From assembly GCA_025769875.1 (NCBI GenBank), contig JAGFNK010000138.1, forward strand, positions 50,620 through 114,619: a DNA stretch of 64,000 nt, written 5' to 3'. The stretch's first letter is position 1; every line of letters begins with the position of its first letter. The stretch comes from Russula earlei. Its lineage: Eukaryota; Basidiomycota; Agaricomycetes; Russulales; Russulaceae. The notes beneath the pieces are model-generated. The model had not been told where the DNA came from. It searched no databases and saw only the letters and a list, made by a program, of their open reading frames with translations. Made by a program: the position numbers and the translations under genes. Shown here piece after piece: positions 173 through 37,800 of the stretch.

Positions 173-3172
173 TAACCTGAAACAAGTGCAACAAATCATG
201 GGCACCCTCAATTACCAACGACCATTTATCCAAGACTTTGCTAAAATAGCTCGCCCCATTTTCTCTACAATCAAGAAAGGAACCCCCTTTTTCTGGACCC
301 CAGAAGCAACCACAGCCCTGGAAACCTTGATATTGGCAATCTGCGACGACCCTGAACTCTACAACGCCAACCCTGACCTCCCATATGAACTAGAAACGGA
401 CGCCTCACAATTTGCCACTGGAGTGATCCTATTTCAGAAGGACCCAAGAGGAAAAAGAAAAATGATTGGCAACATGTCACATGCATTCAACGAAGCAGAA
501 AGGAACTACCCAGTTTGGGATAGGGAGTTCCTAGCCTTGATTCTTGCACTCCAACACTGGCGATACCTATTAGTCAGAACAAAACACCCCATCAAGATCT
601 TTACCGATCATGCTAACCTTGCCCACTACTGACTCCCTCATAAAATTAATTGAAGGATTGCAGGTTACATTTCCACACTGGCAGATTATCATTTTGAAAT
701 CCACCACAAACCCGGGACTTCTAATCATGCAGATGCTCTCTCACGACGACCTGACCACAATGATGGGTCAGGAGATAACCAAAACATCATGGCACTCCCC
801 AATAAACTTTTCATTCACACGCTCCACACCGAGGACCTCTACGCCCAAGTCCTAACTGAACAAAGAAACTGAAAATCGGATCTCCTCATGTGGAAGGTCA
901 AACATGGTCTTCAGGAAGAAGAAGGCGCACTATTCAAAGACAGGAAATTAGTGGCACCATATCAAGAACCCCTCTTACAAAAGATCTTACATACCTACCA
1001 TGACAGTATTCTTGGCGGACATACAGGAAACGCCCGAACCTTGTATTCAATCCAAGAATCCTTCTGGTGGCCAAAAATGGCCTACTTCATCCAAGACTAC
1101 ATTCGAGGCTGTGCCACCTGTCAAGCCAACAAGTCTTCCACACACCCAACTCACCCCCCAATTTACCCCATTCCCCCAGAATTTCAAAAACCTTCCAAAC
1201 TATCACCATTGACTGGATTGTTGACCTCCCACCATCAGAAGGAAACAACACCATCATGACCATTACTGACCATGACTCCACTAAAGCAGCCATATTCATA
1301 CCTTGCCATAAAGACATGGGAACCCTGCAAATGGCTAAACTATTTTTACAATACACCTTCCCATGGACTGGAGTTCCCTCCAAGATTATCTCTGACCGCG
1401 ACTCCCGCTTTACCTCCAACCTATTTCAAGAAGTTTCCCGAATCCTCGGAATCAATCAAAACCTAAGCACTGCCTATCACCCCCAAACCAATGGACAATC
1501 AGAAAGAACCAACCAAACCTTGGAAATGTACCTACGCATCTACACAGGAGAAAAACAAGAAGAGTGGATGCATTGGCTCCCCATAGCCCAATACCATTTT
1601 AACACTCACAAATCTACCACTACCAAAAAAACCCCATACAAACTCCTCATAGGCTTCAACCCACAAGGACTTGGAACCCAACTCAAATCCAAATTCCCCG
1701 GAATTCAAGAACGACTTCAAGTGTTAAAAGACATCAGGGAGTCGGCACAAGAAACAATGAGAAAGGCACAAAACAATTGGATCAAGGAAACTAAGTTCAA
1801 GGGTTTCAAAGAAGGACAAAAGGTTTGGTTAGAAGGTACTAAACTAAAAACTCCTCATCAGTTTCAGAAATTCTGCCCCAAACGGTTTGGCCCCTTCACC
1901 ATCACCAAAAAAATCTCTCATGTTGTCTACCAACTCCAACTTCCCCCCCAATGGAGCATTCATAACATGTTTCACACTTCCCTCCTATCTCTGGTTACAG
2001 AAACAACCAAACACGGACCAAACTTCCCCAAACCGCCACCTGACCTCCTCTTGGGAGAATACGAAGTCAAAAAGATCACCGCCCAATGTACCCATAGAAA
2101 CCGGCTCCAGTACAGAGTTTGGTGGAAAGGATACTCTGCAGCAGAAGATACGTGGGAGCCCCTCTTGAATCTTAAAAATGCTCAAGATGTCATCACCATG
2201 TTTCATCTACAACAACCCACCAAACTCCGCATTATGTCTACCACTAACTCTGACCCCACAGAATCCCACCACTCAGACAAAAGTCTAGACAACCTGGAAC
2301 ATCAGTTTCAAGGACTTACAATACAACAATGTACTTTACTCCCCTGAATCAATTCACATAACCCCCCTTCCTATTCAGTCAATGATCCCACTATCCCCGA
2401 CTGCAGACATACTATTTTTAACATAGCCGCCAGGGAACAACTTTTTTCTGGGATTCTCTCCCCTGGTGACTTCTGCAGATTTCAGTTACTTATGATGGAC
2501 CCTGGTTTCTCCAAGTTTCATTTATCTATCTGGAGAGCAGTACTTACAGATTTGGTATGGAACCATGTCATATGATCAGCCTCCATAAATACCCCCACTC
2601 CTTCAGAATGGTCAGCCTGGCACCATGAACATGCTACTTCTGCCTACAATACTCCCATGTCATCTCCTGCTCCCACTTTGTCACCGCTACCAATCCTTAC
2701 CCCCTCTCCCACCATTAAACAAGAACCCCTCTCACCTGAAGTCATACAGCACATAATTGATCAACGTACCTTCATTGTCCCTGATGAGGCCAAACTACAA
2801 GACCTCTCAGCCACCCTCAACCCACTTGCCATCTGTGAGGGAACACCCTCACCTACCCTGACTGAAGCAGACCCCACTCACCCTGGCCCTCCCTGGTTTG
2901 TTTACAAACCATACATGCACATACCCCCTTTCTATATTAACATTAATGGACAGAAGCATCTACTACCTTACTTACGCATCACCTTATGGAAAAATGAACC
3001 CATGCTTCTAGGAACTATGGGTCGAGGAGAACCCGCCTATGGAGAAAAACTCATTGCCCGACCCATCATCTCTGCCCCTCACCCCTCTGCTATGGCCTCT
3101 GACCTCCACCTCTTAGTTGAGGATCACCCCTTCCACTTTGATGTTGCTCAGGTGCTCAAGAACCTCCACGAC
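173..3172 (+). mobile_element. Decayed Ty3/gypsy retrotransposon, 5' half missing
   Basis: This is the remains of a chromodomain-type Ty3/gypsy element read on the plus strand. It has the end of reverse transcriptase, RNase H, integrase, a chromodomain and a separate downstream ORF. Gag, protease and most of RT are absent, because a family A LTR joins the coding sequence at 172/173. The right side runs directly into a family B LTR at 3173, the likely 3' LTR, although no polypurine tract is obvious before it and no target duplication can be tested with the 5' end gone. Frameshifts in pol show that it is dead. Confidence 0.8.
174..2347 (+). pseudogene. Ty3/gypsy pol fragment: RNase H, integrase, chromodomain
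   Basis: Three consecutive open segments together give one broken pol. Bases 186-632 encode the RT thumb and RNase H, with the patterns ELETDASQFATG and FTDHANLAHY. A frameshift near 632 and an in-frame TGA near 655 follow. The remnant continues through a RNase H tail (HADALSRRP). Bases 888-1190 carry the integrase zinc-binding region (GGHTGNARTL, then CATCQ). A second frameshift near 1190 leads to 1067-2347, which holds the integrase core. Its acidic triad lies in TIDWIVDLP, ISDRDSRFTS and QTNGQSERTNQ. A C-terminal chromodomain follows (EYEVKKI, then YRVWWKGYSAAEDTWEP). The triad and chromodomain are intact as sequence, but the frame breaks exclude a functional polyprotein. The acting chromodomain of such elements is known to direct integration to heterochromatin. 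Confidence 0.85.
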
Positions 3173-3319
3173 TGTTACACCATTTTCCTTCTACGATTAC
3201 TTCTTACCTTTCTCTATGGACTGCTTGCTTTCGTACGTCCCTTTACTTACTGGTCTTGTGATCTCTTACGTCTTGTGATCCCTTCTGTGTTATCATGTGA
3301 TCCATACACATCCAGGTAA
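2657..3319 (+). CDS. Post-pol ORF of the decayed gypsy element
   Basis: This is a 220-codon open frame that starts 310 bp after the pol stop. The first 172 codons lie in the element. The last 49 codons (3173-3319, including the stop) run into the family B LTR and are probably not native. The N-terminus is rich in Pro, Ser and Thr (residues 1-25), followed by a more ordered stretch with the pattern WFVYKPYMHIPPFYI and LLGTMGRGEPAYG. No known catalytic domain is recognised. A second, unrelated-looking post-pol ORF exists in the gypsy element at 6519-7775, so extra 3' ORFs seem to be a habit of these elements. What it does is unknown. Confidence 0.5.
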   Translation: MSSPAPTLSPLPILTPSPTIKQEPLSPEVIQHIIDQRTFIVPDEAKLQDLSATLNPLAICEGTPSPTLTEADPTHPGPPWFVYKPYMHIPPFYININGQKHLLPYLRITLWKNEPMLLGTMGRGEPAYGEKLIARPIISAPHPSAMASDLHLLVEDHPFHFDVAQVLKNLHDCYTIFLLRLLLTFLYGLLAFVRPFTYWSCDLLRLVIPSVLSCDPYTSR

Positions 3320-4054
3320 CACTGGATTGCTGTTACTTTCCCTTTGTTTGGTTCTCTTTCCATTTATATTCACTTCTTAGTTTCAACTGTGCAATGCTGT
3401 GCACTTACTGTGCAGCGCAGTTACTTGGTTCTGACTCATTCGTGGCCTCATTTCTATGACTCCTACTTATTATGACTCCTACTATACTAGTAGCACAGTC
3501 AAAGCGCAGCTATTGCTGTGCTTCTCCTGTATATATAAGCTCAGTACTTTGTGACCAAAGCCCTAAGCTTGGTCTCTTGTAGAATCCAACCTACTCTTGT
3601 CCAACATATTCGCCTGCAACCCACTTCACTCCTAATCCTCAAACCACATCCACATCTCCATCTCACCAACTCTTCACACACACCAACTACCATCTACTCT
3701 ACCCATCCCTTCCTTCCCTAAGAGTCTCTCTTCACTCTACTAAGAAGAGCTCTCCTCCTTTAAGACCTACCTTCCTCTACTCTCTCTGCGTTGTTCAAGG
3801 TCTCTGACAGACTTGAACGCATATAGCTAGTGGAACCAGCCCTAGTCTATCCCATTACAAACTTACCCTAGCTTCTCAACGGACCAAGTTGTACTAGGAA
3901 GGGTCCATTGGCCATAACCTGTTTAGCATAAAACACTTCGACCGCTGCAGGGATCCTTACTCTCTATACATGGGAACCAGCCCATTTCTTGAACACATCT
4001 CTACTATCAACTCATCTTCACACTTGAGAACTGACATGGCTTGTTACCGTGACA
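3173..4054 (+). repeat. LTR family B
   Basis: About 882 bp running from TGTTACACC to GTTACCGTGACA. It aligns along its length to the solo LTR at 50785-51778. The core promoter is visible: CTGTATATATAAGC near 3529, then CTCAGTACTTTGTGACC, both shared with the other copy. The flanks (ACGAC before, GCCTC after) are not a target duplication, so this is either the 3' LTR of the gypsy remnant on its left or a rearranged copy. It lacks the 111-bp insertion found in the other copy and so serves as the empty-site reference. Confidence 0.8.
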
Positions 4055-4396
4055 GCCTCTGCTCTTCGCCTCTGCCTCCTGCAACACATACCAGTCCCCA
4101 TCTGGTACATTCTAGTCATTTGGCTTGTCCTCCTGTTCAACACCACCTACGCCGCGTACCATCTGTTCCGACCCTTGCCCACCTGCTCCTGAGTCCTTAG
4201 TGATCAGCAGTACATGTCTTGACAACCAGTAGTTCTTTGTTGTTTTCAGTGGTGACGTAGCAGAGGAAGGTGTGGAAGCTGTCCCAAGTGGCAGTTCCTA
4301 CAACATGTTGTGGGAGGATCTAGGTTGGACACGGATCCAGCAGTTCGATGGTAATTCAAGGTTGATCTCCAGAATGGAGTAAGAAAGCTTAGCTTG
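4055..4396. other. Spacer between two LTRs, probably element interior
   Basis: This stretch holds no supported gene. It lies between the end of the family B LTR and the inner end of the minus-strand family A LTR, so its right part is probably the 5' untranslated or early gag region of a family A element that reads leftwards. No primer-binding site could be assigned with confidence. Confidence 0.4.
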
Positions 4397-5016
4397 TGTT
4401 ACGGTGTCGTGGCCATAAGAGCATTAGCTCAGGTTCAGTGGGGCCAAGTCCCTGTGACTTGGTTCAGGGGTTCAATGGGGCCGGCTCTGAGAGACCGGAT
4501 CAAAGGTTTAGCATCTCAAGGCTGAGTCAGACAATGACTCAGTCCGCAGACAGAGTTGATCTCCTGGTTTCACAGAAGAGGAGGACGATGAGAGAGAGGC
4601 AGAGGAGGAAGAGGAACACAAGGGTTCCTTGAGGTGTGCTTAGGTCAAGCAGAATATAGGCCAGCACAAGCAAGTTGTGATTGAGAGAGTATACAGGGCA
4701 AGGGATGCGACAGGAAATGGGACAAAGCTAAGCTTGGGGCATTCCCCAGCTTCTACAGGTGCTTAAATTCTGTATCTAGCGAGGCTGTACAGTACCATAT
4801 GCAGAACAATAGATAACACTAAGCCAGTAGCAAAAGGGGCTTGAACAATAGATGAAACAATAGATGAAACACGAGAGGCGAAACAATAAGAGACCATCAG
4901 TATCAAGGGGTAGGATGGTAGGTAAGGAAACAAGGGTGACAGGAGAGAACAATAGTAGAAGTAAAACAATAACAGAAGGGGTTAGAGATGAACTGACAAG
5001 GGGGTAATTCATGACA
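4397..5016 (-). repeat. LTR family A, full length
   Basis: About 620 bp on the minus strand, from TGTCATGAATTACCCCCTTG at 5016 to CACCGTAACA at 4397. It matches the plus-strand copy at 52012-52602, including the AAGCTTGGGGCATTCC block and the Ser/Arg-rich reading of 4396-4632 that is mirrored at 52366-52710. The flanks (GCTTG and AAGAT) are not a target duplication, so this is one LTR of a damaged element rather than a clean solo LTR. Confidence 0.8.
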
Positions 5017-5135
5017 AAGATCCCCAAATCTCATGAGAACTCATCGTCTCACTCAACTCTGCTGCACTTGTCTCACATGTGAATGGATTTGTCAGCAACA
5101 CCACCCCCAGTTGGTGACAAGTTTTCTGAATTGTA

Positions 5136-5691
5136 AGGCCCCTTTTACCAACCAAGAATTCTTGAATCTTGAACTTGAACTTGGATTTCAGGATTTTCCA
5201 GAAGTGATGGGAATGACAGGTGTGATGTAAGTGACATAATAAACTAATATGAGTCTATTTCAAATATGAGTTATTTTTCGGTGTGATTTGCTGGGTTTAT
5301 ATGTGATATGTAAAATATTTTTTCTAACCCTTCCTTCCACTCCTTCCAAGTGGGGTATTGCAAGCATGTCATTTAGGCAGAATATGTGTCACCAATGTGT
5401 GGGTGCACATCTTTGTGCAAATTTTGTATGTGCAGCTCTGGTGAAAATGGGGCTGCAAGCACCCAGATGTTGAGCTCAAGTTGGACTGCTCAACTCTGAG
5501 TTTGATGCTGACACATCATGTGTAACCCCATATATGCAAATATGCAAATGACAACAGAAAAAAATGCATATTAATTTATTATATACATTATATCACTTAC
5601 ATCACTCCTGTCACTCCTGTCACTCCCGGAAAATCCCAAAATCCAAGTTCAAGTTCAAGATTCAAGAATTCTTGGTTGGTAAAAGGGGCCT
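5136..5691. repeat. Inverted-repeat (MITE-like) element, about 556 bp
   Basis: The left end reads AGGCCCCTTTTACCAACCAA and the right end is its reverse complement. The match continues inwards for about 110 bp with small differences (AAGAATTCTTGAATCTTGAA, then the GACAGGTGTGATGTAAGTGA region). The interior is AT-rich and has no coding potential. The flanking dinucleotides (TA left, AA right) do not give an unambiguous target duplication. Inference: a non-autonomous DNA transposon or foldback MITE. Confidence 0.6.
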
Positions 5692-6005: not shown

Positions 6006-6500
6006 TGTCACCGACTGGGGGCGGTGTCGCTGACAAATCGGTTCACGTGCGAGATGAGCGCAGCGAGTCGAGCGAGACACTAAGTCCTCGCAAGTTTCGG
6101 GGATCTCGGAGACGATATTGCCAAGGCAAATATGTTCCGCGGAGAAGGGAAACTACGAATAAGTCTTCGCGTTGAGAAGACTTATGAGTAGTAGGAATTT
6201 CAGACGAGATGCTTGATGTCTTGCAAGCCTACAAGTCCTGAAGCAAGAAAACCAGTGATATTTCACAGGAGAACAAGCTTAGGGCTTGTCCTCGTCAATC
6301 AGCAGTCTTATATACATGTTAGATACTATATCAAATAGTATTCATGAGGTAGAGGCGAGGCGATCGAACTGGAACACGCGGGAAACGTCTGGTATGTGCG
6401 AGGCTTATAAAAGAGTCATGAAACACGAGAGAAACTTGAGGCACGTCCGGGTAGGCTTGTCCGGTTGCCGGTCCGGTCCGATGTACCAGTTCTTGTGACA
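6006..6500 (-). repeat. 3' LTR of the gypsy element
   Basis: 495 bp from TGTCACCGACTGG to TTCTTGTGACA, with terminal TG/CA. Read on the minus strand it contains a TATA-like TTTTATAAG (complement of 6406-6415). It is about 98% identical to the LTR at 12919-13413. The nine differences are listed as a separate finding. Confidence 0.95.
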
Positions 6501-6514
6501 TTACCCCCTTGTTA
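6501..6514 (-). promoter_or_regulatory. Polypurine tract of the gypsy element
   Basis: On the minus strand the bases directly inside the 3' LTR read AACAAGGGGGTAA, a purine run in the position where plus-strand DNA synthesis is primed in LTR elements. This fixes the orientation of the element independently of its genes. Confidence 0.7.
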
Positions 6515-6518
6515 AGGT

Positions 6519-7775
6519 CTATCCTGTATAGGGGTAAACGTTCGAGACGCAGCGATGGGTGTGATAGTGGAGTTGGTCTCTTGGAACTCGACATATTTTG
6601 TGTACTTTGCAGCGTCGATGAGGAGTTCTGCAGAGGTCTGCCTTGTGTCCATGGCGGTTGCAGAGAACGCAGGTAGTGATTTTGGGGCAATCGACGGTGT
6701 CATGTCCCCCGTCGAGACACCAAGAGCATTTGTCAGAAATATGGGGGGAGAATTGGTACCAAGGGTCCATGATCGCCTCTTTGGCATCCTTATGCTCCTG
6801 TTCGGTTAGTTGTGGCATAGATTGGAACAGGATTCTAGGTTCAAGTCGGGTCTTGGCGTTGGCTCTGGCCAATTTGACCTCACTGTCTCAGATTTCCCAC
6901 AGCATGTCGTGGTAGCGTCCTCTAGCCGTTACAAGTTGATTAGCCATTTGTCGTGCTTTTTTGATGGCGAATCGATATCGAAGAACTTCGGCTTCAAGGG
7001 ATAAATCCTGTTCGAAAGTGAGGGCTTCATTGACGGCCTTAGTATGTCTAAGCCCTTCTTGGAATAGGAAGGCGTCTTTTGTGGTAAGGAGGGGACGAGG
7101 GTAGGGGTCGGCACGAGCTCGGATCGAGATTCGATGAGTAGGACATCCAGGTCCGTACGTAGCAGTGACGGATGGGAAACCATTGGGCAGATCTGGTAGA
7201 ATGAATCATGGGGGAATCGTATCGTCCTCATTACCAGGGTCGGGGATCAGTATGTCAAGTCCCAAGGTTCCCTCCATCCAGTTGTCACCTAGTTCGCGTA
7301 GTTCAGCCGTAGTATCTGTTCCTGGAGCCACGGGTATTGTATAGGCTGGTGGGGGGGTGTCGTTATTTCGTGGGGGTATGGGAACAAAGTTTTCATTGAG
7401 GAGTACCAAGTTAATTGGTTGTTGAGGGATGGGTGTGTCGAGCCGAGGAGGGATGGAGATAGGGTCAGGAGAGGGGGAGCGAACGTGATAGGACGGGCTG
7501 TGGGCAACTGGGGAGTCAGTTCCTCTAGTGGGGGAGCGGTTGCCGAAGGCTCGCAGTATGGTGGGTAGAGTCTCTTCGTGCCAAAGTTCTTGGGCTTGTG
7601 CTATCATTGCTGCGTGTCGTGCTGCACGTTGTATTAGGAGTCGAGCATTGATAGTCACGGCTGTAGATGGAGATGGTTCTCTAGAAATTGGTAGAGGAAC
7701 AAGAGCTGGAGAGTGTGGGGGAGTAGGGACGAGGGTAGCGGAAGAGGTAGTGGGTGAGTTGACGTTGGAGGACAT
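6519..7775 (-). pseudogene. Third ORF of the gypsy element, with twin CCHC zinc knuckles
   Basis: This begins with ATG at 7775, 54 nt after the TAA that ends pol and in the same frame. It stays open to 6519 except for two TGA codons, one after residue 189 and one in the WEI/DSEV junction near 6875. The product would be about 418 residues. The N-terminal half is rich in Pro, Ser and Thr. The middle (about residues 240-300) is charged and may be helical. The C-terminus has two perfect CX2CX4HX4C knuckles in tandem, CSWCLDGGHDTVDC and CVLCNRHGHKADLC. The element's Gag already has its own knuckle, so a second nucleic-acid-binding protein is unusual. Inference: a nucleocapsid-like accessory protein. 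Expression route is unclear because nothing visible drives a separate message. Confidence 0.7.
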
Positions 7776-7829
7776 GTTGGAATGAGGGGAATGGAGTAGT
7801 GAAGAGTGTTGATGGGGATTGGTGGTCTT

Positions 7830-10800
7830 TTATGTGTTGGGTCGTCCAGCCGTAGCGGAGTAGAATTCTTTGAGGAGTCTGGGGGCGTTGAGGTCGTGAT
7901 GGTCGACCCAAGAGTCATCTGATGATGGGTAGCCTTTCCAGTGTACGAGGTATTGGAGTTTACGTGTTCGCCCAAACCTTCTGGCATCTAGAATGGCCTC
8001 AATCTCATATTCTTCTTCGTTATCGATGATCGGGGGAGGTCGTGTGAATGGTGTGCCATATTCTTCTGTTTCTATATATGGTAGGAGTAGATTGACATGG
8101 AAGACATCGTGTATTTTCATGGATGACGGAAGTTGGAGTTGGTAGGCGACTTTGGAAATCTTTTTTATGATGGGAAAGGGTCCGTAATGTTTTGGGGTTA
8201 GCTTGCGGTTTCCTCATGTTTTGAGGTTCTTGCTTTCTAGCCATATGAGGGTCCCTTCTTTCATTTCCGGGTTATCAGGTCTGGAGGGTTGTTGTTTATG
8301 TTCCAAAAGTTGTTGTGCGTTGCATCTAGATTGTTCTAGTTCTCTGAGTCGATCGGTTGAGGCGGGAACGTTGTTGTCCTCGAGGTTTATGTTAATTTGG
8401 GGTTTGAATCCCATGAGGAGTTTGTGTGGTGATCGTCGTGATGTTTCATGTTTCCACGAGTTATGTGCATATTCTGCGATAGGAAGTAATTTTGCCCAGG
8501 AGTGTGGATGGGTTGCGGTCCAGGGTCTCAAGTATTGTTCTAGCCAGGCGTTCATTCTTTCGGTTTGTCCGTCGGTTTGAGGGTGAAATGCAGTGGACAT
8601 GTTTTGTTTGATGTCTAGGCTTTTGCATAATGCTTTGGAGAAGTTTGATGCGAATCGGGGGTCTCTATCAGATATGATTCTTTTAGGGACACCAAACCAA
8701 GGCACGAGGTGTTTCAGATATTCGTGCGCGACACCTGTTCCATCGATCGTTTTGTTACATGGGATAAATTTGGTCACTTTAGAACATCCTTGATCGACAA
8801 TGGTGAGGATGCTATCGAATCCCTCTGATCTTGGCAAATCAGTGATGAGGTCCATCGATACGTATTGGAAGGGGCCTTGTTCGACATGTGTGTCGAGTGG
8901 GAAGGCTGTTGCTTTCTTTCTTGGTAAATTAGTTTTGGATTCTTGGCATTTGGCGCAGCCTTTTACATATTGCTCTACAAATTGTCGTAGTTTGGGTCCT
9001 TCATAGTGTTGTTTGACCAGGTCCCATGTGTTGGCGATTCCGGGGTGTCCTGCAGGTGGGGCATCGTGAAATTGTCGTAGGATTTCTCGTCGTTTGTCTA
9101 GTTTGTCAGGTAAGTAGATTTTTCGTGTGAATATTTCAGGTGGTAGGAGGGTGGTTTTTTGTTCTTCTACCCCCTTGTTAAGGTCTTTGCGACGAGAAAG
9201 TGTGTCGGCAATTGTATTGGTATGTCCCGGGATGTGTTCCATAATTAAGTTAAAGTCTTGCATATATTGCATCCATCTTGCTTGCCGTCCCGTTAGTTTC
9301 TGTGGTTCTTTAAAGTATGTAAGATTTTTGTGGTCTGTCCTTATTCGGACGGGTTTCTCTGCGCCTAAGAAGAATGGTCGGCCACTTTTGAGGCCAAAGA
9401 TGACGGCAGCTAGTTCTTTGTCGTGCGCGTCGTAATTTCTTTCTGCGTCCAGTAGTGTTCTTGAATAGAATGCTATGGGATGCAGTCCATCTTCATATTC
9501 TTGGGAAATAACTGCTCCTATAGCAAATCCTGATGCATCAGTGTCAAGGATAAATTGTTTGGTCCAATCTGGAGTTCGGAGAACTGGGTAGGATATGCAT
9601 GTATCTTTTAGTGATTGGAATGCTTGTTGTTCTTTGGGTGTCCATTCCCATTGTTTATTCTTTTTTGTCAGGTCATTGAGTGGTCTGGCTTTAATCGAGA
9701 AATTTGGGATGAAGTTGTGGTAGAAGTTGCAGAATCCGAGGAAGCTTCGAACTTCTTTTAATGTTTTTGGTGTGGGCCAGTCTCCGATTCCTTTGACTTT
9801 TACTGGGTCCATAGTAATTTTTCCTTCGCCAATGATTACTCCCAAGTATTCGACTTTTCTTCTGTGGAATTGACATTTTTCTGGTTTAAGATATAGGTCG
9901 TGTTGTTTCAATTTTGATAGAATGTGGTTAACTTTAGATTTATGTTTCTCTTCGTCATTTTCTGTGGCGATAATGATGTCGTCCATATAAATCTTCAGCC
10001 ATCCCTGAGCAAGTTCTTCTTGAAAAATGTCGTCCATCATTGTCTGGAAGGTTGCTGGGGAGTTGGTTAGTCCGAAAAACATTACCGTTGGTTCAAATAA
10101 TCCATCGCTAGTTTTGAAGGCTGCCTTCCATTCGTCTCCTTCCTTAATCCTAATGTTGTTGTAGCCCCATCTGATATCGAATTTAGTAAAGAGTTCTTTG
10201 CCTGCTAGAGCATGTATCAATTCTGGGATTAAAGGAAGTGGGTAGACATTGGGTATGGTCCATTTATTCAGGTTTCTGTAGTCTTGTACTGGTCGGAATT
10301 TGCCATCCTTCTTTTTAATCAAGAAGAAACCACTTGCGTATGGTGAGTTAGATCTTCTGATTCGCTTTAATCATAGGTTTTGTTCAAGAAATTTTCCTTG
10401 TTCTTCTTTTTCTTTGGGTGAAAGGGGGTATACTCTGCAGTTGATCATCGTAGGGGCGTCAGGTTTAAGATCGATAGCATGATCCCATTTTCTTGGTCTG
10501 GGGAACCTTTCTGATTTTTGTTCTTCGAAGACTTGGCCGTAAGCATGATATTGGAGAGGGACTATTTGTTGCCAGGTCAGTTGTTTTGACTGCCCTTGGG
10601 CTTCTGCTAATTGTTGGGCGATTGTAGTTTTTCGCAATTGCGTTTGTATCCAGAGTTCGTCACCTTCTTCCCATTGTGCAATGTTCTTTATCCACTCTGG
10701 TGTTTCTTCGTCTCCGGATAAGGTTATCTTTCCTAATAATGTTCCATTGGTCCAATTGATCTTGGGGTTCGTTGATTTGAGGAAGGGGTATCCCAAAATC

Positions 10801-11078
10801 AGATCGTCTTGTCCGATGTCTGCTATAAGGAACTGTTGCTTGCTTTTTTGTCCCAATAGTTTTAACTCCAAGTCCACCGCCTGAGTGATCTTTCCCAGGC
10901 GATTAGAAGTGTTATCGACATTCTTTACCACTCTAGGCGTCAACAGTTTCCGCATTTTTAGTTGAAGTTGTTTGGTCAACTTGGGGGATATGAAGCATTC
11001 AGTTGCTCCGCTGTCGATTAACGCGGTTTTCTTTTCGGCTTTTGAGGTTCCAATGTATATAGTCAAATTGACCTGCAT
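7830..11078 (-). pseudogene. Ty3/gypsy pol: protease, RT, RNase H, integrase, chromodomain
   Basis: One frame runs from about 11140 to the TAA before 7830, broken only by TGA at 10371 (before RT) and TGA at 8214 (before the chromodomain). Domains in order are: aspartic protease with ALIDSGATECF; reverse transcriptase with KFDIRWGYNN and the catalytic YMDD; RNase H with LDTDASGFAIGAV and IRTDHKNLTYF; integrase zinc region ending CAKCQ; integrase core with triad segments SMDLITDLP, ISDRDPRFAS and QTDGQTERM; and a chromodomain with YEIEAILDARR and YLVHWKGYPSSDDSW. The frame is -1 relative to gag. The two stops are both compatible with CGA-to-TGA change. All catalytic residues are retained, so this was an active element until these mutations. 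Confidence 0.9.
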
Positions 11079-11140
11079 TGACTTTCTTTTTGTAGTTTTA
11101 TGTACATTGGTACCTAAGGCCCGAGCGATCGCTGATATGC

Positions 11141-12883
11141 TCAGGCATCCGAAAAATCCTTTCCCTCGTCGTCGTCGGTTTCTCCATTCAACATCCTGAT
11201 AAATTCCTCCCTTTCCTCTTTAGAGAGGGCTTTGGCAGCCTTCGCGACTTTGGCCGTTGCACTTTCTTCAATGATTTCGACAACAGAGGATTCGGATGTG
11301 GTGGTGGTCACTTCCGCCATGCGTGCGCGTGTCGGTTCGCGTTTGGGTTTCATGGGGCAATCTCTGGCAAGGTGTCCCTGTTTTGAGCAATGAAAACATC
11401 TGCCTTCGGCGCGATGTTTCTCCTTGTCAGCCTCAGTGATCGCTTTGCATGCTGCGCCTGCGCTGGTGTCCATTGCATTTGGGTCACGTGGTGGAAGGCG
11501 TGCGCGTGGTGCGGTAGCGTTGTTGGTGGTGTTGCCGCGCGCACCCCAATTCGAAAGGCGGGCCCAGGGGCGGTTGGTGTTTGAATTGGTGTTCCTGTTG
11601 TGAGTGTTGGCGTGATCGGTGAGGACTGCGCGTTTACGCATCCAGATGCGATGTTGTTTTTGAGCACCGGTCATCCATTCTAAGAAGGTGGTTGGGTCTT
11701 CCTGACTGATGATTGCTTCGACCAATGGTTTGGGAAGGCCACACGCAAACAGGCGCATAACCATGGGATCGTCCGTGTGCAAGGATCCTCGTCGAGCTAA
11801 CAATTCAAAATTAGCTATATATTCATCAAGATTATTTTCTTTCATCTTGAGTTCACGGAGTTGGTCTTGTGCGCGTTCGCGTTCAGCGTAGTCGGTGAAT
11901 GCTCGTTTGAATTGCTGCTCCATGGCTTGCCAGGCAGTGAGGCCAAAGGGGATCTCATCTGGATCGAGCATGACTTTCTCAAGCCACTCGTCCATAGCTT
12001 CGACCCAACTGTCGACGCGGGGTCCTTCCATCAGTGATAAGAAGTAAGCACACTTCTTAATGGGGTTCTGAGCAATTTTGCTGTCAAAGTTCATCCTCAT
12101 GAAACGTCGAAATGCGGTGAGGAATGCGTGAGTGCGTGCGCGATCGCCGTTGAAGGCTTTGGGTGGAATGCCTTCGAGTTTGCCATTATCCGAGGGGCGT
12201 GCGTCGCGGTCGTACGTGGCGTATGCGTCGTAGTCGTCAGGGTCTGGGCTGGGAGGTCGTCTATCACGTCCTCTGAATCCTTGAAACAATGATGGGCGTG
12301 GGTACGCCTGCGCCATTCCGGACGACGCTAACTGCTGGGGTATTTGTGCGGGTGGTTCTTCTGGTTCGTCAGCTGCAACGAAGAGTTGCGTCGTGGTCTG
12401 GGGTTCTTGTTCCATGGGTTCGGCAGGCGCGGGTCTGGGAGTTGGTGCGTGGGACGGGTTCTTTGAGTTTGGAACTGGTTCTCCTGATTTAGTGAGCTGT
12501 TCCATATCAAGACCCTTGAGAGGGTCAGAAATTAGTCCGAGGGCCGGGCGCGCGACACGGTAGGCCTCGAAGTAGTCTTCGCGGCGTCGGATTTCGAACC
12601 ACACGCCGTAGAGTGTTCCAAGGCCTACTTTGGCCTTTCTGTAGTAAGCATAGTACCCGGTCCAGGGTACACTGTCTATTCCCACTCTGAGGAAGTAAGC
12701 ATTTTCTCTGAAGGCCTCAGGGACAAATGCGTCGTCGAGGTCCGGGTTCAACTTGAAGGGACATTTGAGTTTCTTCAGTCCTTCTTCTGTGGGTTTTCCT
12801 TGTCCTTTGAACCTCCAGTCTCTGGCCATGGAAGTCATTTTCTCAAAATCGTTGTATTCGGGGGTGGATGCGTGTATACGCAT
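11141..12883 (-). CDS. Gypsy Gag polyprotein
   Basis: An intact 580-residue frame, first in the element. The N-terminal 120 residues are unfamiliar. A Pro/Gln-rich linker follows. A retrotransposon capsid region lies at about residues 220-400, with the typical pattern FNGDRARTHAFLTAFRRF and LDEYIANFELLARRG. A CX2CX4HX4C zinc knuckle, CFHCSKQGHLARDC, lies near residue 500, followed by an acidic tail. The stop overlaps the start of the pol frame, which is offset by -1. A run of five T (GATTTTTC) seven codons before the end is a plausible slip site for -1 frameshifting. Gag, unlike pol, has no nonsense codon. It would assemble the virus-like particle in the cytoplasm. Confidence 0.9.
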   Translation of the reverse strand: MRIHASTPEYNDFEKMTSMARDWRFKGQGKPTEEGLKKLKCPFKLNPDLDDAFVPEAFRENAYFLRVGIDSVPWTGYYAYYRKAKVGLGTLYGVWFEIRRREDYFEAYRVARPALGLISDPLKGLDMEQLTKSGEPVPNSKNPSHAPTPRPAPAEPMEQEPQTTTQLFVAADEPEEPPAQIPQQLASSGMAQAYPRPSLFQGFRGRDRRPPSPDPDDYDAYATYDRDARPSDNGKLEGIPPKAFNGDRARTHAFLTAFRRFMRMNFDSKIAQNPIKKCAYFLSLMEGPRVDSWVEAMDEWLEKVMLDPDEIPFGLTAWQAMEQQFKRAFTDYAERERAQDQLRELKMKENNLDEYIANFELLARRGSLHTDDPMVMRLFACGLPKPLVEAIISQEDPTTFLEWMTGAQKQHRIWMRKRAVLTDHANTHNRNTNSNTNRPWARLSNWGARGNTTNNATAPRARLPPRDPNAMDTSAGAACKAITEADKEKHRAEGRCFHCSKQGHLARDCPMKPKREPTRARMAEVTTTTSESSVVEIIEESATAKVAKAAKALSKEEREEFIRMLNGETDDDEGKDFSDA

Positions 12884-12918
12884 TCGGGGTCAAGGGTTCG
12901 AAGGTAAGCTTGTTCTAA

Positions 12919-13413
12919 TGTCACCGACTGGGGGCGGTGTCGCTGACAAATCGGTTCATGCGCGAGATGAGCGCAGCGAGTTGAGCGAGACACTAAGTCC
13001 TCGCGAGTTTCGGGGATCTCGGAGACGATATTGCCAAGGCAAATATGTTCCACAGAGAAGGGAAACTACGAATAAGTCTTCGCGTTGAGAAGACTTATGA
13101 GTAGTAGGAATTTCAGACGAGATGCTTGATGTCTTGCAAGCCTACAAGTCCTGAAGCAAGAAAACCAGTGATATTTCACAGGAGAACAAGCTTAGGGCTT
13201 GTCCTCGTCAATCAGCAGTCTTATATACATGTTAGATACTATATCAAATAGTATTCATGAGGTAGAGGCGAGGCGATCGAACTGGAACACGCAGGAAACG
13301 TCTGGTATGTGCGAGGCTTATAAAAGAGTCATGAAACACGAGAGAAACTTGAGGCACGTCCGGGTAGGCTTGTCCGGTTGCCGGTCCGGTCCGATGTACT
13401 GGTTCTTGTGACA
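12919..13413 (-). repeat. 5' LTR of the gypsy element
   Basis: 495 bp, from TGTCACCGACTGG to TTCTTGTGACA, followed by the target copy AGTTC at 13414-13418. Read on the minus strand it is upstream of gag and should hold the promoter. The bases just inside it (TTAGAACAAGCTTACC on the minus strand) are where a primer-binding site belongs, but I could not match them to a tRNA from memory. Confidence 0.95.
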
Positions 13414-13418
13414 AGTTC

Positions 13419-14131
13419 CCTTGTAGTATATAAGTGCTCAATAAAGTAGTGGACAGTCTTCAGACTGTCCATTTGATTTGCAGCACTCTTATACCAAGGG
13501 TATCCCTTTGGGATGGCCCTGTCTAGTATTCTGGTGCTCTCCTTCCATGACCACCTCTCACAACTGGTACCAGTACCCTTCTGGTGTTATTGTGATTTAT
13601 TACTGATGCACTATAGATATCACTCTGGGGCGTCATCACAATGCTCCAGATAGTAGTTCCATTATTTGGATCAATTTATGGCTTAGTCAGGTCAATATTA
13701 CAGGCAGAGGAGCAGTAGTATACCTTAGTCTCAATTGCTCCTCCACAGGTGTGTAGTAGTTTGACTCCTCATAACAATTCAGGTCTCAATTGCTCCTCTG
13801 CAGTTCCCTTTGAGTCCTGTGGACATAAGGGTGCTAATAGGTTGCTTATTTAACATCTGGTACAGTACTTGTTACTCATCTGGACTATACTCTTGGCCAA
13901 CTTTGTTCCAGAACTTAGATGACTCATCTCCAAGCTCCTCTCTCACTCTTGAACTGGATTGTTCAACAGTGAGTTGTGACAATACCATGGTGTCAATACA
14001 CCATGGTCTTGAATAATACTTTTGGGTAAAACCTGTACCTGCAGTTATGGTGTGTGCACAGGTACAGTGTCATAGGTTACAGGTGTGGTAATATTTTGTG
14101 TGACCCACAGTGTGACCTGTGCTACACCCTA
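13419..14131. other. Gene-free DNA between gypsy element and palindrome
   Basis: No coding region or structural RNA is supported. Short near-repeats occur (GTCTCAATTGCTCCTC at about 13728 and 13784; CAGTACC/GGTACC motifs). The composition is similar to other repeat-derived parts of the window. Confidence 0.4.
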
Positions 14132-17100
14132 ACACTGGTTGGGAAATCAACTTATGTGAATGACAAAACTGTAACATTTTGAAAAACAAAATTTATTATT
14201 TTCATACAAATTTGTAGCAAACAATTTGTGAAAATTAATTTTATATTTTGTTACAATAAATTCCTGTTACAAAATGATGAAATAAGTAAATAGTATTCAC
14301 AAAGTTTTAGGACATACATTATATTAAAAACATTTTCAAATTTTGGGTGGAACAAAATTGTGAAAAAATCAAAAATGCAAAATTTGGGTTTATGAAAAAG
14401 TGGAATAAAAATTGTGAAATTTTTGAAATTTTTGAAAAAGTTTTGTCACTTGAATAAAGATGTTAGGGAGATAAATTTTTGTTATAATCATTGATGAGAA
14501 CAAACTCTAGCCATATAGAAAACATAATATTATCATTTTTAATGAAGAAATGTTTGAATGCATTCACAATTTTGTTAAATGAAAAATTTTGACAAAACAG
14601 AATATGAAATCCTAAAGTTGTTTCATCATTTTGTCATTGGAATAAAGATGTCAGGGAGATAAAGTTTTGTTATAATCATTCATGACAACAAAATCTAGCA
14701 TTTTAGAAAACATAATGTTAACATTTCTCCTGCAGAACATTTTTGAATACATTCACAATTTTGTCAAAGGAAAAATTATCACAAAACTGAATATGAAATC
14801 CTAAAGATGTTTCATCATTTTGTTTATAACATTTAGATATATTATGGTCAATTCTGAATGATGCTGGACATCTATACACCACAAAAAGAGGCCATAAAGT
14901 TGTGTCACTTGTGCTGTCATGGCTCAGCTCAGTCTGGTTCAGCTCAGCAATGGCTTGGCCAGAGTGGGTGAGCTGGTCTGAGCCAAGTCATGGCCTGTTG
15001 CTTGAGCTGGTTCAAGTTGTCCCATTTTGGCCATTTCTACATTTGGATCTACTTTCAATTTTGAGAATGCTCTTGTAGGCCATCAATGTGATGTTATTAC
15101 CAATGAATGCTATGGTCATTCTCAGTGATGCCATGCAATGTCAAGATAATGCCATGTGGTTTAGCATGATCATGGACATTGCCAGGACAGTGGTGGACAC
15201 TGGTTACACAATACAGGTGATGCTATGCAATGTCAAGATAATGACATGTGATTCAGTGTGATCCTAGACATTGCCAGGACATTGGTGGAGAATTCTAGAA
15301 CAATGCTAAGTAATGCCATGCTCATTCTGAGTGATGCAAAACAATGCAAGCATAATGCAATTTGGTTCAGAGTAATCCTAGACAATTCTAGCACAATGCC
15401 AAGTAATGCCTTGGTTGCTCTGAGTGATGCCACAAAATGTCAAGATAATGCCATATTGTTCAGCATGATGGTAGAAATTTCCAGGACAGTGGTGAACACT
15501 GCTCACATAATGCAAAATGATGCCATGGCCATTCTAAGTGATTCCAAGCAATGACAAGATAATGCCATGTGGTTCAGAGTGATCCTAGACATTGCCAGGA
15601 TGTTGGTGGACACCACTAACACAATGCAAAGAATGCCATGGTCATTCTGAGTAATACCACACAATGTCAAGATAATGCCAAGTTGTTCAGCATGATTGTA
15701 GACATTGCTAGTACTGTGATGGACATGGCTGAGACACTGCCATGTGATGACATGGTCATTCTGAGTGATGCCACACAATGTCAAGATAATGCCATGGGGT
15801 TCAGAGTGATACTAGACATTGTCAGGACATTGTTGGACAATTCTATCACAATGTCAAGTGGCATTGTGTTAGCAGTGTCCACCAATGTCCTGGAAATGTC
15901 TAGGATCACTCTGGTCCATATGGCATTATCTTAAAATTGTGTGGCATTGCATAGCAGTGTCTCAGCCATGTCCACCACTGTTCTGGCAATGTCTAGGATC
16001 ACTTTAAACCACATGGCAGTAGCTTGACATTGTTTTGCATCACTCAGAATGAGCATGGCATTACTTAGCATTGTTCTAGAATTCTCCACCAATGTCCTGG
16101 CAATGTCTAGGATCACACTGAATCACATGTCATTATCTTGACATTGCATAGCATCACCTGGTATTGTGTAACCAGTGTCCACCACTGTCCTGGCAATGTC
16201 CATGATCATGCTAAACCACATGGCATTATCTTGACATTGCATGGCATCACTGAGAATGACCATAGCATTCATTGGTAATAACATCACATTGATGGCCTAC
16301 AAGAGCATTCTCAAAATTGAAAGTAGATCCAAATGTAGAAATGGCCAAAATGGGACAACTTGAACCAGCTCAAGCAACAGGCCATGACTTGGCTCAGACC
16401 AGCTCACCCACTCTGGCCAAGCCATTGCTGAGCTGAACCAGACTGAGCTGAGCCATGACAGCACAAGTGACACAACTTTATGGCCTCTTTTTGTGGTGTA
16501 TAGATGTCCAGCATCATTCAGAATTGACCATAATATATCTAAATGTTATAAACAAAATGATGAAACATCTTTAGGATTTCATATTCAGTTTTGTGATAAT
16601 TTTTCCTTTGACAAAATTGTGAATGTATTCAAAAATGTTCTGCAGGAGAAATGTTAACATTATGTTTTCTAAAATGCTAGATTTTGTTGTCATGAATGAT
16701 TATAACAAAACTTTATCTCCCTGACATCTTTATTCCAATGACAAAATGATGAAACAACTTTAGGATTTCATACTCTGTTTTGTCAAAAATTTTCCTTTAA
16801 CAAAATTGTGAATGTATTCAAAGATTTTCTTCATTAAAAATGATAACATTATGTTTTCTATATGGCTAGATTTTGTTCTCATCAATGATTATAACAAAAC
16901 TTTATCTCCCTGACATCTTTATTCAAGTGACAAAACTTTTTCAAAAGTTTCAAAATTTCACAATTTTTATTCCACCTTTTTCATAAACCCAAATTTTGCA
17001 TTTTTGATTTTTTCACAATTTTGTTTCACCCAAAATTTTAAAATAAGTTAAAATGTTTTTAATGTAATGTATGTCCTAAAATTTTGTCAATACTATTTAC

Positions 17101-17254
17101 TTATTTTGTCATTTTGTAACAGGAATTTATTGTAACAAAATATAAAATTAATTTTCACAAATTGTTTGCTACAAATTTGTATGGAAATAATAAATTTTGT
17201 TTTTCAAAATGTTACAGTTTTCTCATTCACATAAGTTGATTTCCCAACCAGTGT
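14132..17254. mobile_element. 3.1-kb palindromic foldback-like element
   Basis: The ends are ACACTGGTTGGGAAATCAAC at 14132 and its exact reverse complement ending at 17254. The arms match over about 1.2 kb (14132-15345 against 16040-17254) with only scattered differences. The outer arms are very AT-rich. The inner arms include a GC-richer block near 14920-15010, repeated inverted at 16380-16470. Between the arms lies a tandem-repeat core. No transposase or other protein is encoded. Every reading frame in it is a by-product of the repeats. The flanks show no clear target duplication. This architecture resembles foldback elements (long inverted repeats made partly of subrepeats). A hairpin formed by large-scale inverted duplication is the alternative. 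Confidence 0.8.
15080..16280. repeat. Tandem 114/93-bp repeats in the palindrome core
   Basis: The motif CAATGTCAAGATAATGCC recurs at about 15136, 15228, 15342, 15435, 15549, 15662 and 15776. The spacings are 92, 114, 93, 114, 113 and 114 bp, so the unit is 114 bp with a 93-bp variant lacking about 21 bp. Each unit carries GATCCTAGACATTGCCAGGA and a CATTCTGAGTGATGCC box. Near 15856 the units switch orientation and continue inverted to about 16280, which creates the centre of the palindrome. Confidence 0.85.
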
Positions 17255-17900
17255 AACTGTGACAATCAATCCACACTGAAACTGGCAACAAATGACAATT
17301 ACATGCACACACCAAGCATATTGATATCCAATATCACTTCATCCAACATGTTGTAGCAAACCAAGAGATTAAATTGGTCTACTGTCTGAGAGGACATGAC
17401 CACAGATATCTCTCTTAACCAAAGTCCTTCCCAAGTGGAAGGTGCTTTTTATATCTCCTCCCTGGGATTGCTCCAAGTTGAGCTTGAGGGGGAAGTGGTG
17501 GATTTTTGCTCCACCAAAGGCCAAGACATGCAAAGCACCTTCATGGTGTGATGTGCTATGCCTCTGGGTCCACAAGAAACTGAGACAAAATTTCTGGAAA
17601 ACCCCCCCTTTGCAGGGGACATTGCTCAATCAATAAATGGTCTCAATCCTGTAGTAAACTCACAAGCCACAGATCACTCATAGTAAAAACACTAAAAACA
17701 CTAAACTGCCTCAGATGCAGGCCACAATAAAGATGTCTCAAGGACATCATGGATGCAAGCTCAACACTGTGGCCAAAGGCCACAAAGGCAAGATTATTTA
17801 CATGACTACCAAACTTGCTTCAATATTATCCCAGAAAAACATGATACATATTAACAAATATCATACATAGGGAAGTGTACCTAAAGGGGCTCAAAATCAG
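17255..17900. repeat. Dispersed repeat, shared with 53130-53340
   Basis: The block at about 17690-17895 (CACTGTGGCCAAAGGCCACA, then TATTATCCCAGAAAA) recurs in the same orientation and order at about 53145-53340. An open frame of 86 codons at 17369-17629 (minus) has no recognisable features and lies partly in this repeat, so I do not call a gene. Confidence 0.6.
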
Positions 17901-34818: not shown

Positions 34819-37800
34819 GTCCGAGTGCGAACTCTGAATCAACAACGAGGGTCGGATTGAATGGCTTGCATATGCAAACACAGTGGTAGTGGGAGTAAAA
34901 GAGGGGAGTGTGGTGCGAGGGGAAGCGAGAGGCAGGTAGGGCACCCCGCCGGCTTGGCTTGGCCTGCTTGAGGGGGAGACTCGGACTTGCACTCGGCAGC
35001 TGACCGTGAACCACCGCGGGCACGACTCGACCCCCCTCTGGCCCTCCTCCGTTGCTCTCTATCACCCACCCCCCGACCGTCGTATGTCCTCTGTCCGCCA
35101 AGACGATCCCCGATCCTGCTGGTCATCCCTCCCTTCTCTGTTCTAACTTGCCCCCGTGGTCCACATCGCGTTTTCTATCCACCGGGGATTCTCATGAGGT
35201 CTCTCTTAGCCTTCTAGAGGAGGACCCCGCGGTTGATCTCTCTTCCATTCTGATCCCGGTAATGTACTTCTTAGGAATTTCTCCGCTCATGCCGAGTGCT
35301 CTCGACTGCGGACAGCGTACCTCCATGGCGGCCTGTTCTAGTCTATCACACGAAATCCGGTCGAGCTGATTGTTCTTTAACTTGGTTTGCTTCAGTACCA
35401 CTATCAATTTTTTTTTAAAACCTGCCAGTCTTCGGTCCTCGCCGTCTCTGGACGTATTGTCCCCTTGGTACCCTAATGTAAGCCGTGCTCTGCTCAGCCT
35501 CGTCCTTCTGGCGCTCTGCCACTCAGAAACTTCCCAGGGCTGCTCCTCCCTGTTTCGCCAGGCGCCTGGTTAAGACCCACGAGAAGTTCAGTCGGATATC
35601 AAGTGATCCCGCCACATGATATGGAAGCGACTGGCCCCATTATATGGTCAGGTCAAAAGGAGGGATGGTGTCCGCTATTTTCATTTTCACGTCCCCATGT
35701 GTTATCCTCGTTTCTTCTTCTGCACGGAGCCTGATAGAAGACAGACCGACGAAACAGGTGTATGGCCTCCCCCATTCATCGCCAACCTATGCACGGACAG
35801 CACTAGCAACCGTATTTTCGCCCCTTACGGATCGCCATTCATTTCACAGCCCCCTAGAGGGGCTTGGTGAATCCGTCACGCATACAACAACGATTTGCAG
35901 AAACATCCCTGATGTGGTCGGAAGGCAGGTCATTGTAACCCTAAATCGTTAATCATCAAGCCCTCGTCTACCTGCGTATTTTTGCTCGCGTGTCTGTTGC
36001 GTGTCTGCAGCGTGTCAAACATTTCACTTACTTATTGAGTGAGTCATTCAAGTTGGCCACCGTGTTCTCTTGACCCTTAATGCTATCCGCCCAAAGAGAG
36101 CGCCAACTGAGTAATAGCAAAGGCGCACACGCAAGCCACTGGCTTTAGCTCACCCTGGCCACTGTCAAACTTCTCATTGTACTTCGACACGCGTTCGTAT
36201 GGTGATGTGGCAACACATGTGTACGTTTGGCGCCCGTGCATTTTCTCCTCCCGCTGTGCTCTTCTCAATTTTCCCCCGAACTCGCCATTATCTTCCGCTT
36301 GGTCACTATCATTCTGTGCTCCTGGTCCGTAAGATGGGAACACCCCTTAATTGCGATTGTACCCTCTCCTCGAAAGTCCGTGACAGCCGAGCCACACGTC
36401 ACCACGCACGACCCAAGGTCTTAGTGACAGACCTTAGATCTTCCCTCCGCCTCAAGGACAACGTCAAGGGAACGTGTGTACATCAGTAATTGGTCGGACA
36501 TGTGGCCGGATCCGCCGATGCAGAATATGGGATATGAATGCTGGCTGTGATCGGGACTGGGATTGACTTGTTCTGGTCGTGTTGGCTTTCCCCCTTGCAG
36601 CAGCGTGCTGAGGTTTTCATGTGGGACGCGACCGACCTAGGCAGTCATACTTGATCAATAATGCATGAACCGATTTGGCTGACGACCTGCTCCAACGCGT
36701 AACTAGGAGGATCTCCGATGATAGTCTCGATCGTGGGAAGTCCCTTCCTGCTCTTTGAACCCCCAAAGCTGAGTCATTTCCCGTTCTATGTCTTTCAACT
36801 AGGACCCTGTAACACCGGTCTGGCGTGTATCGACCCCGTATCTCCCTGACGGGCCCAGTATCAGACTAGTACAACCCCGTCACATCCTGAGCCACTGTAA
36901 TGGGCCTTCGCATCCGAAGAAAGGAATTGACGGCAATGGTCTGGGAAAGCAGCTTCTGAACATCTCCGTGGCCTACCTAACTTCGTAAACGACACTACAA
37001 ACGTTCCTGTAGGAAGGTGTTTTACCCAGCATGCAACTGCGAGGGGATATCGTCTTTGTTACTTCTGCGTGGTTTCCCCTCCGCACTTATGAATAAATGT
37101 CTCGTGCGCAGCCGATAGAAAAGAGAACTCTGCTAACGAGCACAGAATACAGTATTGAACGAGGGCCCCTTGTCTCAACACACTCGGCGCAATGCTGATG
37201 ATTTCAGCCATCAGCACGAGTCACAAGCCCAGTGTGACTCACCCCTTCATGTCAACTTGGACATCGAGTTTGTCCAAAGTTTGGGTTCAGATCTGGCTCC
37301 CACTCCCAATCGTCTTTCGTCAACTTGCTTGTGCATGTGCATATGGGGGAGTTTGCTTGGCTTCCTCACACCTTCATCGTGACGTGACCAAAACCTTTGA
37401 ACGAGTCTACGATAGCTCGCGCAGTTCTGCGGCGGTAGTACTCACCCACATCGCTCCCAGGCTCGGCCTCACCTCAGTACGCTGTTGCCCGCACCTGCCC
37501 TCTGTGCTTTTCTGGCTCCTCCAGGATATTCAAACCTGTGGGCCCAACCTGCCCCCCATTTTCAATTTTGCCTGTCAATTTCGTATTTAATCTTCACACG
37601 TGCTTTAGCCGTAGCCGCTGTCGTCGCCGCGATCGACGATTCAATCAGGTTGTCAGCAGAGCTTAGCCGACGCCCACTCGGAACGTGCCCAGCGCTTTGG
37701 CCTTCTCATCTCATCTCGGTGGGAGGAAATGATCCTGCCGGCTGGCAAAGATGATAAATCAGGTCATAATCGATGCATGCTAGACTCATCTCCCCTCCGT

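Follow-up and report, generated by a model that had tools for sequence, protein, structure and literature searches.

Drosophila Foldback (FB) elements are palindromic DNA with repeated arms. The same form is found in the subject of this report, a 3,121-bp palindrome in the fungus Russula earlei, and in the family of dispersed elements to which it belongs; the family differs from FB in host kingdom, termini, and duplication length. The palindrome lies at positions 14133-17253 of a 64,000-nucleotide stretch (C138:50620-114619), which is referred to here as the window. We consider it probable that the palindrome was inserted long ago as a member of a foldback-like, non-autonomous family of DNA transposons whose arms have repeatedly been made alike and which would be moved by a CACTA/EnSpm-type transposase.

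Galileo, a foldback-like element of the P superfamily in Drosophila, is described with many two-arm copies that lack a transposase, with arms 98 to 100% alike within a copy, and with arm extension into neighbouring sequence, all of which have parallels in the Russula family (PMC3573991). It differs in having 7-bp target-site duplications, compared with 3 bp in Russula, and in including copies with transposase sequence, none of which was found among the Russula elements searched (PMC3573991). The account of Tetris and DAIBAM in Drosophila virilis gives ~220-bp tandem repeats in the arms, which also form longer arrays elsewhere, duplications of 8 to 10 bp, and a Mutator assignment by its authors (PMC4079207). 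The Russula counterparts of the Tetris repeats are a 188-bp pair in the arm and a 92/114-bp core array that is likewise found in longer arrays, and the duplication is 3 bp. Fungal EnSpm elements are described with CAC..GTG ends and 3-bp duplications (PMC12730594), and CACTA elements in general with 3-bp duplications and closely spaced subterminal repeats (PMC8978399); the Russula family shares the termini and the duplication length. No description of the family was found among the listings and starts of abstracts on which our literature searches rested, which is not proof of absence. We regard the family as new and the kind of element as already known.

Dispersal and structure of the palindrome family

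The palindrome was verified with an inverted-repeat search, which returned inverted arms at 14108-15398 and 15976-17278 in segments of 667 nt (99% identity), 229 nt (92%), 219 nt (92%), and 185 nt (91%). These arms extend 25 bp beyond the element on either side; the exact limits of the element are 14133 and 17253, with termini CACTGG..CCAGTG. A TAA target-site duplication, read in the sequence and by comparison with other copies, flanks it on the left (14130-14132) and on the right (17254-17256). A first-pass annotation, made from the letters of the window, had set the limits one base too wide at each end (14132..17254) and had reported no target duplication, which the two TAA flanks contradict.

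Searched with 569 bases of the left arm, the assembly (66.6 Mb, 1,374 contigs) yielded at least 137 matches, with the best 40 of 174 candidates scored, and the matches were grouped into 37 loci whose sequences were compared. By script criteria, under which a terminus could differ by up to 4 edits, both ends are present in 30 of the 37; the other seven (L022, L028, L030, L032, L037, L042, and L044) reflect contig or stretch cuts or rearrangement, and the right ends of L022 and L042 are altered. The left end reads CACTGG in 28 of the 30 two-ended records and the right end CCAGTG in all 30, the exceptions being L020 (GACTGG) and L039 (CACCGG). Identical 3-bp flanks border 22 of these 30. After removal of L015, L027, and L043, which are second records of insertions already counted, an exact 3-bp duplication is present in 20 of 27 distinct insertions, whereas random pairing yielded 2.13 on average and never more than 8 in 5,000 trials. 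Three more elements, read directly, have 3-bp duplications of TGG (C517), TGT (C709), and CTA (C16). The genome search with the terminus that the first-pass annotation had proposed was productive, with 208 places at up to 2 mismatches and none for a reversed-pattern control. CACTGGTTGGG followed by a non-A base occurs at 12 places, compared with 10 for its control, so no sister family of that kind shows. Because the ends are precise, the target duplication is 3 bp, and the copies are many and dispersed, this comparison of copies shows that the family moved as a unit.

Lengths of 1.56 to 1.61 kb account for 21 of the 30 two-ended copies. The longest are the window copy (3,121 bp) and C656 (3,112 bp); the latter owes its length to two stretches without a match to the window element, so the two long copies are not of the same form. 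Because these 30 were retrieved with the arm of the window copy, their sizes reflect that query; other queries bring out a shorter class of ~0.54 to 0.94 kb, and the family as a whole ranges from ~0.54 to 4.7 kb. Outside the window, C138:34008-37455 holds another family end (37435-37455) and core-array matches, ~27 to 31 kb to the left of the element. A short repeat at window positions 13414-13985, also present at palindrome loci L009, L014, L015, L016, L018, L020, L023, L026, L035, and L037 and at L057, is perhaps a target repeat common to several palindrome loci.

The left arm (14133-15398, plus strand) and the right arm (15976-17253, minus strand) were delimited from the inverted-repeat pairs. 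Tandem Repeats Finder (TRF) located a 188-bp tandem pair in the left arm (14441-14823, plus strand) and a 189-bp pair in the right (16552-16935, minus strand). The core, defined with TRF and the inverted-repeat search, is a 92/114-bp tandem array that runs forward at 15107-15860 and inverted, with fewer units, at 15861-16269; TRF reports periods of 92/93, 114, 207, and 227 bp. A change of orientation had been noticed near 15856, and it falls at 15857/15858, between inverted arms at 15768-15856 and 15859-15947. The left array contains the larger number of units, which displaces this flip from the element midpoint (15693). The 114-bp array is also present in other family loci, including longer arrays elsewhere, and is absent from two typical 1.59-kb copies aligned to the window element (L017 and L018). 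With a minimum set at 180 amino acids, no open reading frame was found inside the element, in keeping with the earlier statement that it has no coding content, and neither an Rfam scan at the gathering threshold nor a tRNA scan gave a match in the window. The foldback-like architecture suggested at first pass is borne out by the long arms, internal tandem repeats, lack of a long reading frame, and many copies.

Likeness of the two arms

If the arms had mutated independently since an ancient palindrome, those of one copy would be expected to differ as much as those of different elements. Instead, own-arm divergence over the outer 560 bp has a median of 0.71%, compared with 3.57% between arms of different elements (28 records, 25 insertions, 56 arms; L025 and L035 were excluded for insertions that break the arm alignment). 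The own partner is the nearest or tied arm for 33 of the 56 arms. Scored against the majority state of each alignment column, the 25 distinct elements carry 191 two-sided changes, 158 one-sided changes, and 1 case in which the two arms changed differently, and random pairing yields 28.3 ± 9.5 two-sided changes (maximum, 70 in 1,000). In a FastTree tree, 23 of the 25 elements have their two arms as sisters (random mean, 0.93; maximum, 6 in 2,000), with failures at L009 and L011 and with support of 0.385 to 1.0 among the 23, one of which carries no value. Since the two arms within a copy have changes in common that are missing from other copies, these alignments show that paired arms have been homogenised repeatedly.

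The window copy was described at first pass as having nearly perfect arms. Inverted arms are confirmed, but their differences are unevenly placed, with 23 in the outer 470 bp, 1 in the next 743 bp (element positions 471-1213), and many after that, where the tandem core diverges. Arm comparison and the two-sided changes place the homogenised tract at 14603-15345 on the left side and, as its mirror, at 16029-16772 on the right (longest clean run, p = 0.0002; binomial p = 5e-9). Every one-sided change of this copy lies at or before alignment position 482, in the part common with short copies, and 8 of its 12 two-sided changes lie beyond that position. With the outer arm as the basis of expectation, 2.58 two-sided changes would fall inside the tract, and 8 do (P = 0.005); when the last two, which border the loop of the short copies, are excluded, the figures are 2.45 expected and 6 observed (P = 0.04). 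Such an excess is expected if copying spread mutations to both arms within the tract, and the clean ~0.74-kb stretch looks like a conversion tract. Since the outer arms have decayed beside the clean inner tract, the window copy is, judged from its sequence, not young but an old insertion. Of the two origins first offered for the arm identity, the evidence leans towards conversion and away from recent origin, the window copy's own arms differing by 3.65% over the outer 560 bp, the third highest value of the 28 records.

The clean-run test was also applied to other copies, without multiple-test correction, in 16 records with at least 8 arm differences (L009, L025, and L035 excluded). Eight show no clustering (p above 0.05) and eight give p below 0.05, five of which (L016, L033, L034, L036, and L039) are apparently affected by core aligned past the true arm. 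Beside the window copy, L014 and L041 may hold tracts.

On C912, the family ends lie at 11125 and 15836, and the arms reach into foreign sequence. Locus L044, which stops at C912:15000, contains an inverted repeat of at least 1,152 bp at 99.65% identity (L044:2362-3513 and 4250-5401). The window element is matched only by L044:1526-2429; neither the other ~1.08 kb of the arm nor the 736-bp spacer matches it. A search match (C912:15565-15836) covers the right outer end, the right outer arm itself being unread. The midpoints of the termini and of the inverted repeat coincide (both L044 3881.5), and the foreign piece therefore belongs to the palindrome. L044 2362-5401 is an inverted duplication of GC-rich, gene-like sequence inside a family element; the captured sequence has no Pfam match in three frames, and its sole protein match spans 12% of the query. 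In Galileo, arm extension has been attributed to repair in which one terminal repeat is the template for the other and copying continues past its edge (PMC3573991), and by analogy we infer that the C912 arms grew by the same route of repair copying.

Superfamily placement and competing explanations

The family combines 5′-CAC..GTG-3′ termini with a 3-bp target-site duplication, and by these ends and this duplication, not by a transposase, it fits a CACTA/EnSpm-like assignment. A palindromic form is not usual for CACTA elements. PIF/Harbinger duplications are also 3 bp and are mostly TWA. In the Russula family, TTA or TAA makes up 8 of the 20 exact duplications, which is less than the strict TWA habit of Harbinger, and since the CAC..GTG ends and the 3-bp length match EnSpm, the CACTA/EnSpm-like placement is preferred. 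Plavaka termini are given as TGT..ACA or CATCA..TGATG (PMC12730594), which the CACTGG ends do not match. The 3-bp duplication likewise does not fit the P superfamily with Galileo, for which 7 bp is described (PMC3573991), or the Mutator-group foldbacks, for which 8 to 10 bp is described (PMC4079207); long palindromic arms with internal tandem repeats, a trait of the latter group, are present in the family.

Under the reading that we prefer, a CACTA/EnSpm-type transposase supplied in trans would cut at the CACTGG ends, and arm-to-arm copying, by gene conversion or by fold-back repair synthesis after a break, would keep the arms alike. The same copying would sometimes lengthen the arms, so that the window copy, with its one apparent ~0.74-kb tract, and C912, with an arm carried beyond the family boundary into unrelated sequence, may represent two of its outcomes. 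A more speculative proposal, to which we give limited credence, is that a CACTA-type transposon independently evolved a foldback form whose palindrome maintains itself, arm templating arm, and grows past the repeat boundary, as at C912, where ~1.1 kb of foreign gene-like sequence would have entered both arms, and that captured sequence could become hairpin RNA. Should the CACTA assignment hold, foldback architecture would seem not to be confined to the Mutator and P groups. As a multi-copy fungal family with a range of sizes, insertions on two contigs, and at least one arm-growth copy, it allows palindrome maintenance to be measured and makes the persistence and growth of near-perfect palindromes a testable question.

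Several observations weigh against the preferred reading. Flanks are unequal in 7 of the 27 distinct insertions, and sister-arm support is low in some elements (0.385 and 0.405). Three insertions are each represented on two contigs, and their arm changes since the split are all one-sided (2, 5, and 20), so 27 of 27 later changes in same-insertion pairs affect one arm, or 7 of 7 without L043. That record carries all 20 changes of its pair and may be error-rich, because its left flank also differs strongly from its partner's (65 mismatches and 66 gap columns over 1,367 aligned bases). The 7 usable changes suggest that in-place conversion is not frequent or not constant. The edges of the window tract were chosen post hoc, which makes its p-values somewhat flattering, and short-read assembly could falsely make arms alike. 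Subterminal k-mers (8, 10, and 12) stay within the 99% level of shuffled sequence and thus do not demonstrate the subterminal repeats that characterise CACTA elements; a 188-bp tandem pair is present. Profile searches of the genome with PF13359, PF18759, and PF02992 found no transposase tied to the family among the matches and the 100 termini listed, and the one PF13359 match read within a family element, on C517 (L028 and L067), considered as an autonomous partner, apparently lies in a nested Harbinger element with another terminus (one end read).

These searches gave at least 150 matches for the Harbinger-type DDE_Tnp_4 profile PF13359 (best 150 of 362 candidates scored), at least 139 for the Plavaka profile PF18759 (best 123 of 219), and 33 for the EnSpm (tnp2) profile PF02992 (all 33 scored). 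With 100 of the 208 termini listed, PF02992 matches share a contig with an exact terminus in only two cases (C63 and C220), more than 15 kb apart. C650 and C282, with one family end each and a long 114-bp-repeat array ~3.6 kb inward (70 to 77% identity in the longer matches), are candidate full-length relatives. Two other loci were rejected as autonomous partners. C709 (L066) is a ~0.92-kb family element with a nested element that carries DDE_1 and HTH_Tnp_Tc5; the nested element (L066 ~556-4330) is Pogo-like, with an apparent TA duplication and, by eye, CAGTCAACTCTCTCATAACCC ends. C16 (L069) contains further inverted family sequence and inserted sequence, and a frame in the insert resembles a hAT transposase by eye. 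The EnSpm element around the PF02992 match on C120 (L068) exceeds 6 kb, its termini lying beyond the 6 kb read. This EnSpm/tnp2 element (C120:106500-112500) was probably active recently, since several copies have ~100% identity; these match through both query ends, and those on C612, C525, and C200 are interrupted by ~830-bp segments.

Mobilisation of the same element by a PIF/Harbinger transposase, which would make it Tourist-like with very long arms, agrees with the 3-bp duplication, with the 8 TTA or TAA sites, and with the PF13359 matches listed. We judge it unlikely, given that 12 of 20 duplications are other than TTA or TAA and that the Harbinger-like element in C517 starts, by eye, with a different terminus, (A)GGCCCATGATACC. 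At the 10 PF13359 loci read (L046-L055), moreover, no CACTGGTTGG match (up to 1 mismatch) continues as the family terminus, although left ends may lie outside; every one of the 10 has such a match within its transposase region, and L049, L053, and L054 account for three more. On C492 and C54, PF13359 matches lie inside a family terminus by 4.5 kb and 7.9 kb, respectively, the interiors there being unread. A stronger contender, still well short of even chances, is that the palindrome is rebuilt at each transposition, when the excision gap is repaired by fold-back copying, instead of being converted in place. It would account for one-arm changes within same-insertion pairs alongside changes common to both arms of a copy among different insertions, but the usable same-insertion sample is 7 changes, and the decayed outer arms beside the clean inner tract of the window copy suggest conversion after insertion.

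Another idea is that the locus is retained because its transcript would fold into a hairpin and supply RNA interference directed at the family or at neighbouring sequence. As proposed at first pass, the long arms would, if transcribed, give double-stranded RNA that Dicer could cut. The genome has 16 Piwi-domain matches spread over six contigs, of which C178 and C1075 carry long open frames, and such a route is therefore possible. As an explanation of the palindrome it is nevertheless improbable, since copies vary in size and decay like ordinary transposons. An immobile, one-off inverted duplication or assembly inversion artefact, as entertained at first pass, is refuted by many two-arm copies with precise ends, 3-bp duplications, and differing flanks, and its probability is negligible. 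What can be said for it is that a search with the joined flanks of the element revealed no clear empty site: they matched the window and 13 places with diverged relatives of either flank.

Neighbouring retrotransposons

The window also contains a Ty3/gypsy-like long terminal repeat (LTR) retrotransposon on the minus strand at 6087-13413, with LTRs at 6087-6500 and 13000-13413 that are 98.6% identical. Its domain matches comprise gag, aspartyl protease, reverse transcriptase, RNase H, and integrase, with the integrase core below the cut-off. An integrase fragment at 1067-2347, with SH3_Tf2-1 and chromodomain matches, is the remnant of a second retrotransposon.
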